Shown here: one piece after another, positions 1 to 55,404 of the stretch
Layout: each line of letters opens with the position of its first letter
Numbering within the stretch: the stretch's first letter is position 1
Source: Actinokineospora inagensis DSM 44258
Lineage (GTDB): Bacteria; Actinomycetota; Actinomycetes; Mycobacteriales; Pseudonocardiaceae
Reading direction: 5' to 3'
Length of the DNA: 64,000 bases
Assembly: GCF_000482865.1 (NCBI RefSeq)
Contig: NZ_AXWW01000031.1
Coordinates: forward strand, 1 to 64,000
The notes under the pieces: generated by a model
What the model was told of the DNA's origin: nothing
Seen by the model: the letters and a program-made list of their open reading frames with translations, nothing else
The model's database searches: none
Made by a program: the position numbers and the translations under genes

Positions 1-290
1 CCCCCCACCCCAGGTCGACCCACGACCCACTATCGACGAAGCGCCACCCCGGCACCGCGCGCCTCAAAACAAGCCCGCACAGATCGACGAAGCGCCACAA
101 CCAACCAGCACCGCGCGCCTCGAAACCCCACCCCACATCGACGAAGGCCGCTAGCCCGCCCCGCAGCGCCTCGAAAACCCCGCCTCACATCGACGAAGGC
201 CGCCAGCCCGCCCCGCGCGCCTCAAAACAAGCCCGCACAGATCGACGAAGCACCACCCCCGCACCGCGCGCCTCGAAACCCGCCGATCCC
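1..290. repeat. Module 1 of composite repeat, copy A: degenerate tandem repeat of about 55 bp
   Basis: Four to five degenerate units, each carrying a core like ATCGACGAAG followed by GCGCCACCCC and a second core GCGCGCCTC(A/G)AAA. No coding ORF is credible here. The same units occur at 7683-7790 and, inverted, at about 39480-39670, in each case directly beside the 146-bp inverted-repeat element. The stretch lies on the far side of module 2 from the 3' end of metB. It is the start of the window, so its left limit is unknown. Confidence 0.75.
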
Positions 291-295
291 AACCG

Positions 296-442
296 CCCGT
301 TGTGGTGAAGTTGTTTTGTTTGGGGGGAGCGGTGGCCTAAGCCGGCTGGCGGGTAAGGCCACGCTTTTCCAGTGGCCCCGCCTTTTAGCCTTACCCAGGC
401 TACCGCTAGGGGCCCCAAACAAAACAACTTCACCACAACGGG
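296..442. repeat. Module 2, copy A: 147-bp element with 30-bp perfect inverted ends
   Basis: The arms 296-325 and 413-442 are perfect inverted repeats of 30 bp (core GTTGTGGTGAAGTTGTTTTG), extendable by one G/C pair. The interior is itself an imperfect palindrome (AGCGGTGGCCT near the left, AGGCTACCGCT near the right), so the whole element could fold into one long hairpin on either strand. Near-identical copies lie at 7796-7941 and, inverted, at 39334-39479. The outer flanks are conserved between copies, so no target-site duplication is visible. It has no coding capacity; it resembles a MITE in form but has no transposase partner in the window. Confidence 0.85.
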
Positions 443-538
443 CACCACCGCTTTCATCTGGCGCCAATGGCCGGCGTCGCCGCCAGGCGACCAGGCCGAC
501 CCCCGAGGCGAAGCCGAGGCCCAGTGACCCCTCACACC
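443..538. repeat. Module 3, copy A: conserved block of about 95 bp
   Basis: Runs from the end of the inverted-repeat element to about CCCCTCACACC. It contains a small hairpin (GTCGCC / GGCGAC) and a duplicated CCGAGG motif. Nearly the same sequence is found at 7942-8036, inverted at 39240-39333, and alone at about 16422-16490. Variation in the hairpin loop while the stem is kept hints that structure may matter. Confidence 0.7.
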
Positions 539-712
539 AAGATCAACCGAGAACAAAGCCCCCGAACACACACCCTAGCCAACCCCACCGACAAGATCAC
601 CCCGCCGACCCACAACCATGATCAAACCCGCAGCAAAGCCCCCAAATGCACACCCTATCCAACCCCACCGACAAGATCAGCCGGCCGACCCACGACCATG
701 ATCAACCACTAC
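539..712. repeat. Module 4, copy A: tandem repeat of about 80 bp
   Basis: About two and a half units containing CAAGATCA, AGCAAAGCCCCC and ACACCCTA(G/T)CCAACCCCAC. The same unit is found in degenerate form at 8036-8110 and, inverted, at 39021-39240. It ends about 24 bp from the metB stop codon, so it would form the distal part of the metB 3' untranslated region. The + strand is very rich in C and A. Confidence 0.7.
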
Positions 713-7682: not shown

Positions 7683-7790
7683 ACCCCATCGACGAAGCGC
7701 CACCCCCGCACCGCACGCCTCAAAAAAAGCCCGCCCCACATCGACAAAAGCCGCCAGCCCACCCCGCGCGCCTCGGGACCCGCCGATCCC
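7683..7790. repeat. Module 1 of composite repeat, copy B
   Basis: Two degenerate units of the ATCGACGAAG...GCGCGCCTC repeat seen at 1-290. It lies on the thiolase side of the inverted-repeat element. Confidence 0.75.
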
Positions 7791-7795
7791 AACCG

Positions 7796-7941
7796 CCCGT
7801 TGTGGTGAAGTTGTTTTGTTTGGGGGGAGCGGTGGCCTAAGCCGGCAGGCGGGTAAGGCCACGCTTTCCAGTGGCCCCGCCTTTTAGCCTTACCCAGGCT
7901 GCCGCTAGGGGCCCCAAACAAAACAACTTCACCACAACGGG
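7796..7941. repeat. Module 2, copy B: 146-bp inverted-repeat element
   Basis: Arms 7796-7825 and 7912-7941, 30 bp and perfect, same orientation as copy A and differing from it by only a few bases. It sits midway between the converging thiolase and greA genes. Confidence 0.85.
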
Positions 7942-8110
7942 CACTTCAGCTTTAATCTGGCGCCCGAGGCCGGCGTCGCCGAAGGCGACCAGGCCGACCC
8001 CCGAGGCGCAGCCGAGGCCCAGAGACCCCTCACACCAAGATCAGCCCGACAAGATCAACCAGCAGCAAAGCCCCCAAATACACAGCTTACCCACGAGCAC
8101 CGACAGCCCA
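7942..8110. repeat. Modules 3 and 4 of composite repeat, copy B
   Basis: 7942-8036 repeats the conserved block with the GTCGCC/GGCGAC hairpin; about 8036-8110 is a shortened version of the CAAGATCA...AGCAAAGCCCCC unit. It ends next to the greA terminator hairpin. Confidence 0.7.
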
Positions 8111-8120
8111 GACAGCAAAG

Positions 8121-8152
8121 AAAAAGCCACCCCCATCCACACCGGGGGTGGC
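8121..8152 (-). terminator. Intrinsic terminator of greA
   Basis: Perfect 9-bp stem (8126-8134 with 8144-8152, GCCACCCCC) and 9-nt loop, followed on the - strand by TTTTTCTTT. It starts 14 bp after the greA stop. Confidence 0.85.
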
Positions 8153-14468: not shown

Positions 14469-16412
<1,944 letters not shown>

Positions 16413-16421
16413 CTACCAGAA

Positions 16422-16490
16422 AGCGCCGGCGTCGCCGCCAGGCGACCAGGCCGAACCCCGAGGCGCAGCCGAGGCCCAGAGACCCCTCAC
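16422..16490. repeat. Solitary module 3 of the composite repeat
   Basis: Only the conserved block is present here, without modules 1, 2 and 4: GGCGTCGCC, then CCAGGCCGA, CGAGGCGCAGCCGAGG and CCCCTCAC. It fills the gap between two converging genes, and its TGA (on the - strand) is the stop codon of the MFS gene at 16487. Same orientation as copies A and B. Confidence 0.8.
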
Positions 16491-17902
16491 CCCTCCAACC
16501 CCCCCGCCCGAGAAAGAAACACCCCAACAAAAACCGCAGCACCAAGGCACAACACCACATCCACCCAAATCGCCGCAGTGATACCAGTCAACAGCGTGGC
16601 CGAAGTCTCCCCACCCAGAGCAGCAACTCGACCGGCAACAACCGTGCTCATCAGCGGAATCCCCACAGTGATGCCAATCTGCTGGCTCATCGTAGCCAAC
16701 CCACCCGCCAAGCCTTGCTCACGATCAGGCAACGTCGAAGTAGCCGTCACCATAAACCCGACAATAGCTACAAGGTTGGCTACCCCACCCACAAAAGTCG
16801 CCAGCAGAAGCAGCACCCATTGCACAGACGGCCCAAGCAGCACCAACGGCAACGTCGCCACAGCTTGGCCAACGAGTCCCATCATCAAAGCATTCTTAGC
16901 CCCAACCCTACCAATCAGCTTCGGCGCCAAAACGCCACCCAACACAGTACCCGCCCCCAATACGGCAAATGACAGCCCGGTCGCCAAGGGCGTAAACCCG
17001 AGCACCTTCTGCAGATACAGAGTCAGCAAGAACACCAACGACGTCTCAGTCGCGAAGGCCAGCAGCCCAGCCAGGTTGCTCACGGCGTTGCGACGAAGGA
17101 TCGACATCGGCACCAGCGGGTTGGCGACCCGTTTCTCCACCACGACGAAGACAACCAGGGAGATCACGCCGACTACCAGGGACAATAGCGTCACCGGAGC
17201 GGTCCACGAGTGCTCCCCCGCCTGAGTGAGGCCGAAGACGATCGCCAGTAGTCCGATGGTCACTGACACCGCGCCGGGAAGATCAAGGCGCGGCCGGTTC
17301 GTGGGCCGGCTTTCCGCGATTACCGATGGGCCGATCAGGACGACCAGGCCCGCGACCGGCACATTGATGAAGAACGCCCAGCGCCAGGTGAGTAAGTCGG
17401 TGAGGAGGCCGCCGAGGATGGCCCCGGTCGTGAAGCCCGCCGCCATCAGGGCGCCGTTGAGGCCGAGGGCCTTGTCCCGGAGTTTGCCCTCCGGGAAGGA
17501 CGTGGTCAGCAAGGACAGCGCGGCCGGGGTGACGGCGGCGGTGGCGAGGCCCTGGGCGACCCGAGCCACGAGGAGCACGGGTGGGTTGGGTGCCAGGCCG
17601 CCGACCAGTGAGGCGATGCCGAGCAGGGTCATGCCGGTCAGGAACAGCCGTCGCCTGCCGAACAGGTCGGCGACGCGGCCGAACAGCAGGGTGAAGCCCG
17701 CGGCGCAGAGGGCGAACGTGGTGGCGATCCACTGCAGGTTCGCCAGCGAGAAGCCGATGTCGGAGCCGATCTTGGGTAGTGCCACGTTCAGGATGGAGAA
17801 GTCCACCGCCAGGGTGAAGCTCGCGGTGAGGAGCAGGGCGAGGACCAGCCGCTGCCGCGTGGTCATCCGCGAAGTGGCCGTGGGGTTGTCCGCCGTCACC
17901 AT
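16487..17902 (-). CDS. MFS drug-efflux transporter, DHA2-like
   Basis: 471 residues with about 14 hydrophobic segments. Motif A is seen as FGRVADLFGRRR after the second segment, and motif C-like PAALSLL/GFTTGAILGG near the fifth. Such proteins export drugs or metabolites with proton import. The ATG at 17902 has AAAGGAC 13 nt upstream. The MmyB-like regulator lies upstream on the same strand, with a terminator between them. The final codons and stop lie at the edge of the module 3 repeat, and the 3' part is C/A-rich on the + strand (51 C and 21 G in 16501-16620). Confidence 0.85.
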   Translation of the reverse strand: MVTADNPTATSRMTTRQRLVLALLLTASFTLAVDFSILNVALPKIGSDIGFSLANLQWIATTFALCAAGFTLLFGRVADLFGRRRLFLTGMTLLGIASLVGGLAPNPPVLLVARVAQGLATAAVTPAALSLLTTSFPEGKLRDKALGLNGALMAAGFTTGAILGGLLTDLLTWRWAFFINVPVAGLVVLIGPSVIAESRPTNRPRLDLPGAVSVTIGLLAIVFGLTQAGEHSWTAPVTLLSLVVGVISLVVFVVVEKRVANPLVPMSILRRNAVSNLAGLLAFATETSLVFLLTLYLQKVLGFTPLATGLSFAVLGAGTVLGGVLAPKLIGRVGAKNALMMGLVGQAVATLPLVLLGPSVQWVLLLLATFVGGVANLVAIVGFMVTATSTLPDREQGLAGGLATMSQQIGITVGIPLMSTVVAGRVAALGGETSATLLTGITAAIWVDVVLCLGAAVFVGVFLSRAGGLEG

Positions 17903-39020: not shown

Positions 39021-39333
39021 GTTGATCTTGTTGCTGGTGTTGTCGGTGTGGTGGGTTAGGGTGTGTATTCGGGGGCTTTGCTGCTGGTTGATCATGGGTG
39101 GGCGGACTGTGGGTGGGTGCGTCTAGGCTGTGTATTCGAGGCTTTCCGGCGGGTTGATCATGGTGCATGGGCGGCTGGGCGTTCTTGTCGGTAGGCTTGG
39201 GTAGGCTGTGTATTCGGGGGCTTTGCTGGCGGTTGATCTTGGTGTGAGGGGGCACTGGGCCTCGCTGCGCTCGGGGGTCGGCCTGGTCGCCTTCGGCGAC
39301 GCCGGCCTCGGGCGCCAGATTCAAGCTGGAGTG
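39021..39333. repeat. Modules 4 and 3 of composite repeat, copy C (inverted)
   Basis: 39021-39240 contains three degenerate tandem units (TTGATC(A/T)TGG, GGTGTGTATTCGGGGGCTTT) and 39240-39333 the conserved block with GTCGCC TTC GGCGAC. Same order as copies A and B but reverse complemented. It begins at the stop codon of the ankyrin-like gene. Confidence 0.75.
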
Positions 39334-39479
39334 CCCGTTGTGGTGAAGTTGTTTTGTTTGGGGCCCCTAGCGGTAGCCTGGGTAAGGCTAAAAGGCGGGG
39401 CCACTGGAAAGCGTGGCCTTACCCGCCTGCCGGCTTAGGCCACCGCTCCCCCCAAACAAAACAACTTCACCACAACGGG
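39334..39479. repeat. Module 2, copy C: 146-bp inverted-repeat element (inverted)
   Basis: Arms 39334-39363 and 39450-39479, 30 bp, perfect. The internal asymmetry shows it is in the opposite orientation to copies A and B, and the flanking modules are inverted with it, so the whole composite moved or was copied as one unit. Confidence 0.85.
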
Positions 39480-39670
39480 CGGTTGGGATCGGCGGGTTTC
39501 GAGGCGCGCGGTGCGAGTGTGGGGCTTCGTCGATGGGGGGGTGGGTTGGCGGCTTTCGTCGATTTGGGGTGGTTTTTTGAGGCGCGCGATGCGGGGGTGG
39601 TGCTTTGTTGATGAGGGGTGGGGTTGTTATGAGGCGCGTGGGGTTGGTGTGTTGTGGCGCTTCTTCGCCT
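39480..39670. repeat. Module 1 of composite repeat, copy C (inverted)
   Basis: Three degenerate units with GAGGCGCGCG(G/A)TGCG and CTTCGTCGAT, the reverse complement of module 1 elsewhere. Strongly G/T-rich + strand. It ends about 70 bp from the stop of the LamG gene. Confidence 0.7.
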
Positions 39671-49675: not shown

Positions 49676-49979
49676 CACTAGCGGCTGTGGCCCGACCCAG
49701 AAGGTTGACAGGGTCTCGACGTGCCCCACGACGTCCCCGGCGGTCCAGTACGAGGCTGTTGCGGCGCCGGGAACGCCGTGGGCAGGCCGATACCCAGCCA
49801 ACCTCCGGGTCGAGCGGCTAGCGGCTCGACCCGGAACGTTGACCACGTCTCGACGTGCCCCGCGACGTCCCTGGCGGCGTTGCCGCAACGGCCAAGTACG
49901 TTCAGTACGAGGCCGTTGCGGCGCCGGGAATGCCGTGGGCAGGCCAATGTCCGGCCAACCTCCTGGGTCGAGCGGCTAG
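49676..49979. repeat. Imperfect direct repeat of about 140-160 bp, two copies
   Basis: Copy 1 at about 49676-49810 and copy 2 at about 49820-49979 share TCTCGACGTGCCCC, ACGACGTCCC-like sequence, GTTGCGGCGCCGGGAA, GCCGTGGGCAGGCC and GGGTCGAGCGGCTA. Copy 2 has an extra segment of about 25 bp. The region is non-coding and ends at the stop of the phosphoesterase gene. The remaining part of the gap (49345-49610) shows nothing recognisable. Confidence 0.75.
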
Positions 49980-52739: not shown

Positions 52740-54104
52740 CTATCCCTTCGGGGAGGTGGACAGCAGGTCGACGTTGCCGTCGAACTGCCACAGCGGGTTG
52801 GGTTGGTCCCCGTTCGGGGTCCGCACCTGGAAGTAGCCGTTCACTTCCTTCGGTCCGTCGCCGTCCGCGACGTACCGCCCGTCCGAGGTGACGTCGAGCT
52901 GGTAGATGGCCGACCCGGTGGCGTCGATGCCGGGCAGGTGCCAGGACACGACGCACCGCCAGTCGTTGCCGGGTCCTTCGGGGGCGACCAGCCCGTCGCC
53001 CTTGGTGCAGGCCGCGGTGACCGCCAGGTGCTCCTCGGCGACGTCGGGCCGGTGGAGCTGCGCGGTTTGCAGCCGGTAGAGGTGCGCGAACGCCGTGGCG
53101 ACCGAGTCCTGCAGCTCGTCCTGCCGGATGCCGGACCCGCCGGCCGGGGTGGCCACGGCGACGACACCGACTGTCGCGGCGAACAGCACCGCCAGCGGCA
53201 GGGCGCCGGCGGTGAGCGCGCGGCGTCCCGAGCCCTGGTAGGTGGAGCTGGTGAAGTCGCGGCGCAGGAACAGCGCGTACGCGAGCGCGGTCGAGGTGAC
53301 CGCCCACACCAGGCTGACCACGATGCCGATCAGCAGCGGACCGGTCTGCGCCGGACTGGTGAACAGGCCGTTCCAGGCGATGAACGCGTAGCTGGGCAGC
53401 GCGAGCCGGACGGCGACCGGCAACGGCAGCATCTGCACCAGGTCCATCACCAGCGCCACGACGACCGGCAGCAGCAAGCCCATCGGCGACCGTCCGAACG
53501 CGACAGACCCGAGCAGGCCGATGGCCGCCAGGGCCAATGTCGGGGCCAGCACGCAGATCCACGCGAGCAAGACCCGCCCGGCCGCGGCCGCGGGGGACAG
53601 CAGGTGCCCGTCGAGACCGACCAGGTCCCGGTTGCCGACCGCCAAGACCCCGCCGACCGAACTGGACACCGCCAGCCCGGCGACCAGCAGCAGGATGACG
53701 GTGAGGCTCGCCAACGCCTTGGCGGTGAAGATCCGCCGGGGCGACCGGACCGCCACCAGCAGGTGCCGCCACGTGCCCAGGCGGTCCTCCGCGGCGAACA
53801 CGTCGCCCGCGATCAGTGAGGTCAGCAGCGGCAGCGCGTACACGCCCGCGAAGCCGAGCACGACCAGCGGGCCCGCCCACCCGGTCGCCCCCATCCAGCG
53901 GCCGAAGAGGGTGTCCACCGGCAGCGAGTCCTGTTGACTCACCGCGGCGACGAAGACTGCGGGCGCGAGCCAGCAGGCGACGAGCAGCACCCGAACCGCC
54001 CACTGGGACAGCAGCTTCACCAGCTCGAACCGGTAACCACGGCTGAGCGGCACGGGCCGGGCGGCAGTGGTGTCACTGGTTTCGCCGATGGTCGTCGCGG
54101 TCAT
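52740..54104 (-). CDS. ABC-2-like permease with extracytoplasmic C-terminal domain
   Basis: 454 residues. About six hydrophobic segments (roughly 35-320) form the membrane part, and a soluble C-terminal domain (about 330-454) lies outside. Its partner ATPase is two genes upstream on the same strand. The ATG overlaps the stop of the chimeric ORF (ATGA). The N-terminal 20 residues (MTATTIGETSDTTAARPVPL) are also found, slightly altered, in that ORF. Substrate unknown. Confidence 0.8.
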   Translation of the reverse strand: MTATTIGETSDTTAARPVPLSRGYRFELVKLLSQWAVRVLLVACWLAPAVFVAAVSQQDSLPVDTLFGRWMGATGWAGPLVVLGFAGVYALPLLTSLIAGDVFAAEDRLGTWRHLLVAVRSPRRIFTAKALASLTVILLLVAGLAVSSSVGGVLAVGNRDLVGLDGHLLSPAAAAGRVLLAWICVLAPTLALAAIGLLGSVAFGRSPMGLLLPVVVALVMDLVQMLPLPVAVRLALPSYAFIAWNGLFTSPAQTGPLLIGIVVSLVWAVTSTALAYALFLRRDFTSSTYQGSGRRALTAGALPLAVLFAATVGVVAVATPAGGSGIRQDELQDSVATAFAHLYRLQTAQLHRPDVAEEHLAVTAACTKGDGLVAPEGPGNDWRCVVSWHLPGIDATGSAIYQLDVTSDGRYVADGDGPKEVNGYFQVRTPNGDQPNPLWQFDGNVDLLSTSPKG

Positions 54105-54478
54105 CGGATGGCCTCCGGCTGGTCGGTCTGCTCGGTCAGGGCGAGAAACGCGGCTTCCAGCGGGGAGACCAGTGGGGCGAGCTCGCGCACCGCGAGGCCC
54201 GCGTGCACGAGCCGCACCACCAGGTCGTACCGGTAGCGGCTGAGCGGGATAGGCGGGGTGGCAGTGGTGTCGCTGGTTCCGCTGATTCCGCCGCCGGTGG
54301 TCTGCTTGGTGAGGGCGAGGAAAGCGGCTTCTAACGGGGAGACCAGGGGGGCGAGTTCGCGCACCGCGATACCGGCGTCCGCGAGCTGCACCACCAGGTC
54401 GTGCCAGTAGCCGCGGCCCAGCGGGACGGGCCGGGTGGCAGTGGTGTCGCTGGTTTCGCCGGTGGTCGTGGCGGTCAT
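54101..54478 (-). CDS. Chimeric ORF from a duplicated ATPase/permease gene junction
   Basis: 125 residues, made of two blocks. Each block combines the permease N-terminus (SDTTAT(R/P)P(V/I)PL) with the ATPase C-terminus (AVRELAPLVSPLEAAFLALT). Start and stop both overlap the neighbours by ATGA, so the reading frame is translationally coupled on both sides, like an ordinary operon gene. It arose by duplication of the junction and is not a known family. It may be a neutral by-product or supply extra copies of the ATPase C-terminal helix. Confidence 0.7.
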   Translation of the reverse strand: MTATTTGETSDTTATRPVPLGRGYWHDLVVQLADAGIAVRELAPLVSPLEAAFLALTKQTTGGGISGTSDTTATPPIPLSRYRYDLVVRLVHAGLAVRELAPLVSPLEAAFLALTEQTDQPEAIR

Positions 54479-54600
54479 CGGGTGGCCTCCGGCTGGTCGG
54501 TCAGGGCGAGGAAAGCGGCTTCCAGTGGGGAGACCAGCGGGGCGAGCTCGCGCACCGCGATACCGGCGTGCACGAGCCGCACGACCAGGTCGTCGAGCGC
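54104..54600. repeat. Three near-tandem copies of an ATPase/permease junction segment
   Basis: The segment encoding VSPLEAAFLALT recurs with matching bases (GCGAGRAAWGCGGCTTC) at 54141, 54315 and 54505, i.e. at intervals of 174 and 190 bp, each time followed by a copy of the permease start region. All copies stay in frame and open. Confidence 0.8.
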
Positions 54601-55404
54601 GGGGACGAGCGTGCGGACCACGACCAGTTCCGGATCGGGGACGTCGATGAGGTGGATCCCGGGCGTCCTGGCCGCCACCTCGCGCGCGGACTCCGGGTCG
54701 GAGGTGCGCAGCCGGTAGTCCAGGTCGCTGTTCTCGTCGGACAGTTCGGCCAGCGGGCCGGAGAACACGACCTGCCCGGTCGCCAGGATCGTGACCTCGG
54801 TGCACAGCGCCTCGACGTCGTCCATCCGGTGGCTGGAGAGCACCACGGCCGTGCCCTCGGCGGCGAGCCGGGTCAGCACGCCGTGCACGTGTTTCTTGCC
54901 CGCCGGGTCGAGGCCGTTGGCGGGCTCGTCGAGCACCAGCAGTCGGGGCTTGGTCAGCAGCGCGGCGGCCAGGCCCAGCCGCTGGCGCATGCCGAGGGAG
55001 AAACCACGCACCCGGTCGTCGGCGACATCGGTGAGCCCCACGTCGTGCAACGCCTCGCCGATCCCCGCCTTCCGCGGGTTCTCGCCGCGCAGCGAGACCA
55101 GCGCGGCCAGGTTCTGCCGGGCGGTGAGCGCGGGATAGAGCCCGGGGCCCTCGACGAACCCGGCAACCCCCTCGGGCGCGGCCAGCGCCCGGCCGACCCG
55201 CGTGCCCAGCACCTCCAACGTCCCGGTGTCCGCGACGGTCAGGCCGAGCAGGAGCCCGAGCAGTGTCGTCTTCCCGGCGCCGTTGGGGCCGACCAGACCG
55301 TGGATCCGCCCGCCGACCACCGCCAGGTCCACCCGGTCGAGCGCGATGACATCACCGAAGTACTTCGATATCCCAGTGGCCCGAACCGCGAGGTTTGCGT
55401 CCAT
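54475..55404 (-). CDS. ABC transporter ATP-binding protein
   Basis: 309 residues: Walker A GPNGAGKT (about 38-45), signature FSLGMRQR, Walker B LLVLDEP, H-loop SSHRM. The C-terminal 80 residues (from about 225) form a regulatory tail whose end, RELAPLVSPLEAAFLALT, is the part duplicated downstream. First gene of the operon ATPase-chimera-permease-phosphoesterase. ATG with AGAGGAT upstream. Confidence 0.92.
   Translation of the reverse strand: MDANLAVRATGISKYFGDVIALDRVDLAVVGGRIHGLVGPNGAGKTTLLGLLLGLTVADTGTLEVLGTRVGRALAAPEGVAGFVEGPGLYPALTARQNLAALVSLRGENPRKAGIGEALHDVGLTDVADDRVRGFSLGMRQRLGLAAALLTKPRLLVLDEPANGLDPAGKKHVHGVLTRLAAEGTAVVLSSHRMDDVEALCTEVTILATGQVVFSGPLAELSDENSDLDYRLRTSDPESAREVAARTPGIHLIDVPDPELVVVRTLVPALDDLVVRLVHAGIAVRELAPLVSPLEAAFLALTDQPEATR

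Follow-up and report, generated by a model that had tools for sequence, protein, structure and literature searches.

A composite repeat at gene ends in Actinokineospora looks like a remnant of little-known mobile DNA

Background

What is a repeat made of several parts doing, again and again, in the gaps where genes end? The stretch of DNA analyzed here (the window: positions 1 to 64,000 of contig C26 of the soil bacterium Actinokineospora inagensis, whose genome of 7.28 Mb is assembled in 97 contigs) carries three copies of a composite of four modules. A preliminary description of this stretch held the composite to be confined to gaps between converging genes and to be tolerated or selected there, perhaps as a bidirectional transcription barrier. 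The question is whether the unit is a device for stopping transcription or an element of another origin that has come to rest at gene ends.

The composite repeat in the window

Copies A (1-712), B (7683-8110) and C (39021-39670, inverted) contain the same modules in the same order, and a solo module 3 stands on the + strand at 16422-16493, between a DUF255 gene (14469-16412, + strand) and an MFS gene (16487-17902, - strand). On these points the sequence agrees with the preliminary description, as it does on the flanking genes (metB-like, thiolase, GreA, DUF255, MFS, ankyrin and LamG-like); the metB-like gene near copy A encodes a Cys/Met PLP enzyme. Module 2 is a 148-bp palindrome, or hairpin, with perfect 31-nt inverted arms in all three copies.

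Copy A (+ strand) begins with tandem C/A-rich units of about 52 bp (ATCGACGAAGC...GCGCGCCTC), truncated by the contig start (module 1, 1-294; repeat listing), followed by the hairpin with arms at 295-325 and 413-443 (module 2, 295-443; inverted-repeat listing), small G+C-rich palindromes (module 3, 444-538) and two units of about 80 bp (module 4, 539-712; both from the direct-repeat listing). Only 294 bp of contig C26 precede its module 2, and a gene is known on one side only. Copy B (+ strand) has module 1 at 7683-7794 (repeat listing), module 2 at 7795-7942, module 3 at 7943-8036 and a single module 4 unit at 8037-8110 (both from the direct-repeat listing). Within its module 2, the arms of the outer helix P1 lie at 7795-7825 and 7912-7942 and those of helix P2 at about 7829-7838 and 7896-7905, and an inner helix a-c (GGGTAAGGC/GCCTTACCC) overlaps an alternative helix a-b. 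In copy C (- strand; inverted-repeat listing), module 1 is found at 39481-39670, module 2 at 39333-39480, module 3 at 39239-39332 and module 4, with three units, at 39021-39238.

Two candidate functions for the outer modules were set aside: a leaderless small open reading frame in reversed modules 4-3, whose frame is broken by differences of one to two bases among module 3 variants (by eye), and a sigma-factor promoter in reversed module 4, where a TAGGCT-like box has an unconvincing spacing to any -35 element. Two other local repeats in the window (49726-49966 and 54010-54605) are unrelated to the composite.

Copy number, module order and spread

Searched with a 31-nt asymmetric core pattern (at most three mismatches), the window genome holds at least 120 sites of module 2 (59 on the + strand and 61 on the - strand), and the same pattern read backward finds none there, which excludes chance; the figure is a lower bound because several contigs start or stop inside an element. 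The short-read assembly breaks within the repeat (window 1-294; C61:1, C63:1, C71 and C73), such that many copies lie at contig ends, where their neighbors are unread. The loci of A. diospyrosa hold at least 59 copies. Only these two figures are copy numbers, because match counts from the covariance models R1 and R2 may score both strands of one palindromic copy and end at 15-150 scored candidates.

The fixed module order seen in the window holds genome-wide: among 63 copies of module 2 with readable flanks (14 of the 77 full-length copies were skipped, and modules were sought within 70 bp), 62 have module 1 immediately upstream and 62 have module 3 immediately downstream. Module 4 is found downstream in 27 of these copies and upstream in none. 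Motifs resembling module 1 are also present downstream in 11 of the 63, and motifs resembling module 3 upstream in four, the patterns for modules 1 and 3 being loose enough to match many coding sites too. What is repeated in Actinokineospora is the composite 1-2-3(-4), and not the hairpin by itself.

Searched against 84,980 named genomes, a degenerate arm pattern retrieved at least 84 stretches, all from Actinokineospora among the matches listed. R1 has a match in 15 of the 16 genus genomes (E <= 1.5e-8; G006 is the sole genome without one), and R1, then R2, extend the family to other genera, R2 matching 40 of 200 family genomes in 11 of 46 genera. Among 296 genomes sampled across the class, the only matches are those in the two Actinokineospora members and two marginal matches. 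The high copy number is genus-wide and the sequence species-specific. A plasmid-borne origin was set aside, module 2 having no match in plasmid records.

When the element loci of relatives (30 in all) were compared with about 70 loci of the window genome, none of the ten loci of G003, another member of the genus, shared a position with it, and two of five A. terrae loci had an adjacent gene in common (one in the same orientation, one in the opposite). G003 also carries (L243:1718-1780) a 63-nt mini-hairpin that consists of the outer arms with nearly the whole interior deleted.

The gap between thiolase and greA, which copy B occupies, can be followed across species, since five of the 16 genomes keep the two genes adjacent (tblastn on loci). 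In the window genome, where it contains the composite, it measures 540 bp; in A. terrae (G014) and A. globicatena (G008), which have no module 2 there, it measures about 78 and about 155 bp, respectively; in G003 (510 bp, L227:988-1498) and A. diospyrosa (875 bp, G005, L229:1995-2870) it is occupied by tandem module 4-like units, which carry a DnaA-box-like TTGTCCACA. Module 2 is absent from the gap in four of the five species that keep the gene pair, and a terminator-like greA hairpin is visible by eye in all five (in the window at 8126-8152 on the - strand, GCCACCCCC...GGGGGTGGC), indicating that the unit is not needed at this site. The filled and empty gaps further indicate that the composite comes and goes while the genes remain, and that the same gap attracts different modules.

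The composite might instead be the site of a chromosome-organizing protein, in the manner of enteric BIMEs or of a DnaA-titrating array. In the A. diospyrosa loci, 112 of 125 TTGTCCACA sites are no more than 600 bp from an element, and sites near elements make up ten of ten in G003, ten of 12 in A. globicatena and five of five in A. terrae. The window genome, however, has only one of 23 near an element and NBRC 105648 neither of its two; moreover, the boxes are part of module 4, which is present in only 27 of the 63 copies of the window genome, and we regard such a role as very improbable.

Position relative to genes

Gene orientation around the copies was scored with a codon-usage gene caller written for this analysis, a crude tool that failed to detect the ankyrin gene next to copy C and so put that copy in the class with a far neighbor. 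From seven species we obtained 196 copies, of which 147 were classed, 34 stood at locus edges, 14 had a far neighbor and one lay inside a called open reading frame. The classed copies comprise 97 in convergent, 48 in co-directional and two in divergent gaps. The convergent enrichment behind the preliminary description is therefore strong, but the restriction to converging gaps is not upheld, and the near absence from divergent gaps is consistent with its suggestion that the unit is tolerated at convergent ends. In the window genome the counts are 44, 23 and two (n = 69), against a background in which convergent gaps contribute 7.8% of intergenic bases, co-directional gaps 58% and divergent gaps 34%. 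Compared with this background, the counts indicate that the elements avoid promoter regions and accumulate at 3' ends, above all at those that face another 3' end. Genome-wide, the copies are neither mostly co-directional or divergent in setting nor random in module order, the two outcomes that would have spoken against the preliminary description.

This distribution also counts in favor of a selected transcription barrier, in which the inner a-b hairpin and a following U-run would halt RNA polymerase on the + strand and convergent transcripts would be stopped or trimmed by the 31-bp outer stem together with the C-rich flanks (Rho-type loading): the convergent share of copies in the window genome compares with 13% of background gene pairs. 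The 200 nt upstream of 64 copies are indeed rich in C (47.5%, with 18.6% G and 8.1% T), and 12 of 20 element pairs less than 450 bp apart (for example, L246, L247, L258 and L262) face each other (+,-), the others pointing outward (-,+; six) or standing in tandem (two). Against a barrier, the 48 co-directional copies of the seven species have the + strand of the element in the sense direction in only 29 cases and antisense in 19, and the unit is absent from thiolase-greA in the other species, where the greA hairpin already stands.

A conserved fold under selection on one strand

To derive a fold for module 2, we aligned 65 distinct elements of seven species and ran RNAalifold, which reports two-sided changes at 16 of 38 predicted pairs. 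The hairpin spans 110-150 nt, with a foot that is typically GCCCG/GCTCG...CGAGC/CGGGC, and is composed of three helices, namely P1 (31 bp), P2 (9-13 bp) and P3 (segments a and c). In alignment A2, two-sided changes occur at 12 of 47 pairs, all in P1 and P2 and none in P3, as compared with 5.4 in shuffles (none of 500 shuffles scored as high). In the cross-genus alignment A5 (21 sequences), they occur at 19 of 25 pairs, including all nine P2 pairs, and the covariation score is 0.662 versus 0.220 for shuffled and at most 0.132 for slid alignments. The single-strand fold is maintained by compensatory changes. A known RNA family was rejected as its identity, the best Rfam match (MIR1144, E 0.18) being far under the gathering cut-off.

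The exceptions to Watson-Crick pairing in P1 show which strand folds. Read on the + strand over distinct alignment rows, they comprise 112 G.U, ten A.C and 16 other mismatches, related rows not being independent; an A.C on the + strand is a G.U on the opposite strand. The excess of G.U over A.C is found in each of the seven species (it is weakest in the window genome, 8 versus 4), and this common direction indicates that the folded + strand is under selection, as RNA or as single-stranded DNA. Selection that is not symmetrical between the strands counts against the barrier, as does the opposite strand, on whose inner hairpin no terminator was seen by eye. The U-run that should complete the terminator follows the inner hairpin in the window copies and in many relatives, but it is missing or weak in several others (G013, G120, G121 and G137).

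Within P2, segment a pairs either with b, forming a hairpin that is often followed by U's, or with c, forming a helix that adjoins P2, and the two helices overlap. Such overlapping alternatives are present in 33 of 37 parsed representatives (of 39), as against an expectation of 6.2 when dinucleotide-shuffled sequences are judged by the same fixed bar, and in 26 versus 0.5 at a stricter bar; the fixed-bar control is the one to quote, because another shuffle figure (0.51) set the bar by each sequence's own strength. The a-c pairing shifts in concert among subfamilies (GGGTAAGGC/GCCTTACCC, GCTGGGCC/GGCCCAGC and GATTGGGC/GCCCAATC). Together with the selection on one strand, these helices would fit a bistable 3'-untranslated RNA whose a-b/a-c alternation switches the end processing or the stability of the upstream gene's mRNA. 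An RNA of this kind is hard to reconcile with co-directional gaps in which antisense copies are about as common as sense copies (19 versus 29), or with the absence of module 2 from orthologous gene ends; nor was any common type of host gene noticed, and we consider it quite improbable.

Related hairpins at the ends of DUF222-HNH units

DUF222-HNH (13E12) genes rank with the most common multicopy genes in actinobacteria. In G121, a genome of another genus of the Pseudonocardiaceae, 28 of 31 distinct hairpin matches form 14 inverted (-,+) pairs 1434-1670 bp apart, and the gene between them encodes a protein of about 380 amino acids with a match to DUF222 (E 7e-18) and a weak Pfam match to HNH. 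Aligned DUF222 copies retain the cysteines and histidines of a complete HNH motif, and the best solved-structure matches to the HNH part of the protein profile are IscB HNH domains (E 1e-4). Seven G121 units, each of about 1.6 kb and 87-91% identical, lie at varied sites and in varied orientations, and their homology stops at the hairpin arms; the DUF222 reading frame is apparently split in two of the seven. The same two-hairpin layout recurs in four G152 and five G137 units, which were selected for that spacing. In G045, a DUF222 gene lies between hairpins in one chosen pair and at none of the four top loci; in G049 it comes immediately behind the hairpin, whose reading direction is away from the gene, at all four top-ranked loci, and a second hairpin was not found at these four. 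Hairpins thus form the ends of a multicopy DUF222-HNH unit, with both ends in one genus, one two-ended example in another and one end in a third. Module 2 and these hairpin ends share sequence and structure, according to the cross-genus model and alignment.

Hairpins without DUF222 are in the majority in several genera (top loci of G045 and G163; G157), and the gene is lacking at all four top loci of G163 and all four loci of G157. Among family genomes outside Actinokineospora, DUF222 is present in 28 of 30 hairpin-positive genomes versus 100 of 160 others (p = 5e-4), a comparison in which ancestry and genome size are confounders. Inspection by eye of 16 DUF222 units revealed no target-site duplication; the solitary copies lie inside repeated modules.

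Neither the window genome nor 13 others of the 16 genus genomes have a DUF222 gene. The only three in the genus (L297, L298 and L299, in G011 and G012) belong to other subfamilies, and no hairpin match was found at their loci. As an autonomous unit within Actinokineospora we considered one pair 2 kb apart (G004), and rejected it because it encloses ordinary, unrelated open reading frames. By sequence comparison, then, the Actinokineospora element is related to the DUF222-HNH units solely through the homology of the hairpin, and because the window genome is without DUF222, its mobilization there is something that we infer.

A further point against a selected barrier, which on all these grounds we think unlikely, is that DUF222 units of other genera have related hairpins as their ends. 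We favor, with a probability of roughly 0.58, the reading that module 2 is a solitary, non-autonomous terminal hairpin of a DUF222-HNH (REP13E12-like) mobile element, kept where it is harmless. The complete element, as in other Pseudonocardiaceae, would consist of an outward-reading hairpin, the gene for a DUF222-HNH endonuclease and a second outward-reading hairpin. The nuclease would have acted on the folded strand (single-stranded DNA or RNA) and spread hairpins in trans; in Actinokineospora the hairpin would then have multiplied together with the adjacent modules 1, 3 and 4 as one composite. The convergent bias would mainly reflect the survival of harmless insertions, perhaps with some targeting to gene ends.

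Comparison with known systems

MITEs are short, non-autonomous, dispersed elements with inverted repeats, and module 2 resembles them in being short and dispersed and in having terminal inverted repeats (the 31-nt arms); it differs in that the whole of it folds as one conserved multi-helix rod, and no target-site duplication was seen at the larger DUF222 units (16, by eye). IscB, of the OMEGA-RNA (HEARO) systems, combines HNH with a RuvC-like nuclease and is linked to a conserved structured element. The DUF222-HNH units likewise pair an HNH nuclease with such an element, but the protein of about 380 amino acids has only DUF222 and HNH by Pfam, with no RuvC-like domain, and module 2 matches no Rfam family.

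Closer in distribution are the REP and BIME sequences, described in the available text of PMC3733652 as dispersed, high-copy palindromes that lie mostly in convergent or co-directional gaps, with few in divergent ones, and are often paired in opposite orientation. Module 2 shares all of this on that account: it is a dispersed palindrome of high copy number with the same gap preference, often paired oppositely. According to the same text, the REP hairpin measures 20-40 bp and has GTAG or CGTC at one foot (PMC3733652), whereas the module 2 family, at 110-150 nt, has no such tag at the foot of the hairpin. Some palindromes flank a presumed mobilizing gene, in REPtrons or TIRtrons with 'double palindromic TIRs' (PMC3733652, likewise in its available text), but the gene linked to the related hairpins elsewhere is DUF222-HNH. 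A REP driven by RAYT was rejected, since PF01797 occurs in only two of the 16 genus genomes (G001 and G012) and in neither the window genome nor the high-copy genomes.

The REP13E12, or DUF222-HNH, repeat family of Mycobacterium consists of multicopy units with a DUF222-HNH gene, as far as the accessible portions of PMC13061034 and PMC10589994 describe it, and the units of the other genera are likewise multicopy and carry such a gene, REP13E12 being compared by description only. Terminal structured hairpins are absent from its descriptions in those portions (PMC13061034, PMC10589994), relative to which hairpin-only derivatives at gene ends appear to be new. In the accessible part of a 2026 preprint, the REP13E12 regions are said to 'lack defined biological function' (PMC13061034). 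No description of the hairpin ends or of the module 2 repeat was seen in the accessible portions of the open-access literature on DUF222/REP13E12 and on Actinokineospora repeats.

Conclusion

The composite repeat looks like a remnant of little-known mobile DNA, and not like a device made for stopping transcription. In its behavior it resembles both a mobile-element end that has to fold as a single strand and a REP-like repeat surviving at gene ends. As a tentative extension, which we think has perhaps less than an even chance of holding by a good way, DUF222-HNH proteins may be a class of mobile element that moves by recognizing the folded single strand (DNA or RNA) of its own ends, with Actinokineospora having made the bare end into an abundant 3'-end repeat and the bistable a-b/a-c fold acting as an on/off switch of recognition. 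Module 2 is a structurally conserved, bistable hairpin with no family in Rfam, and its reading as a mobile end would account for a composite repeat that breaks assemblies and fills convergent gaps across the genus. A conserved folded end linked to DUF222-HNH genes would provide a concrete, testable handle on how these genes move.
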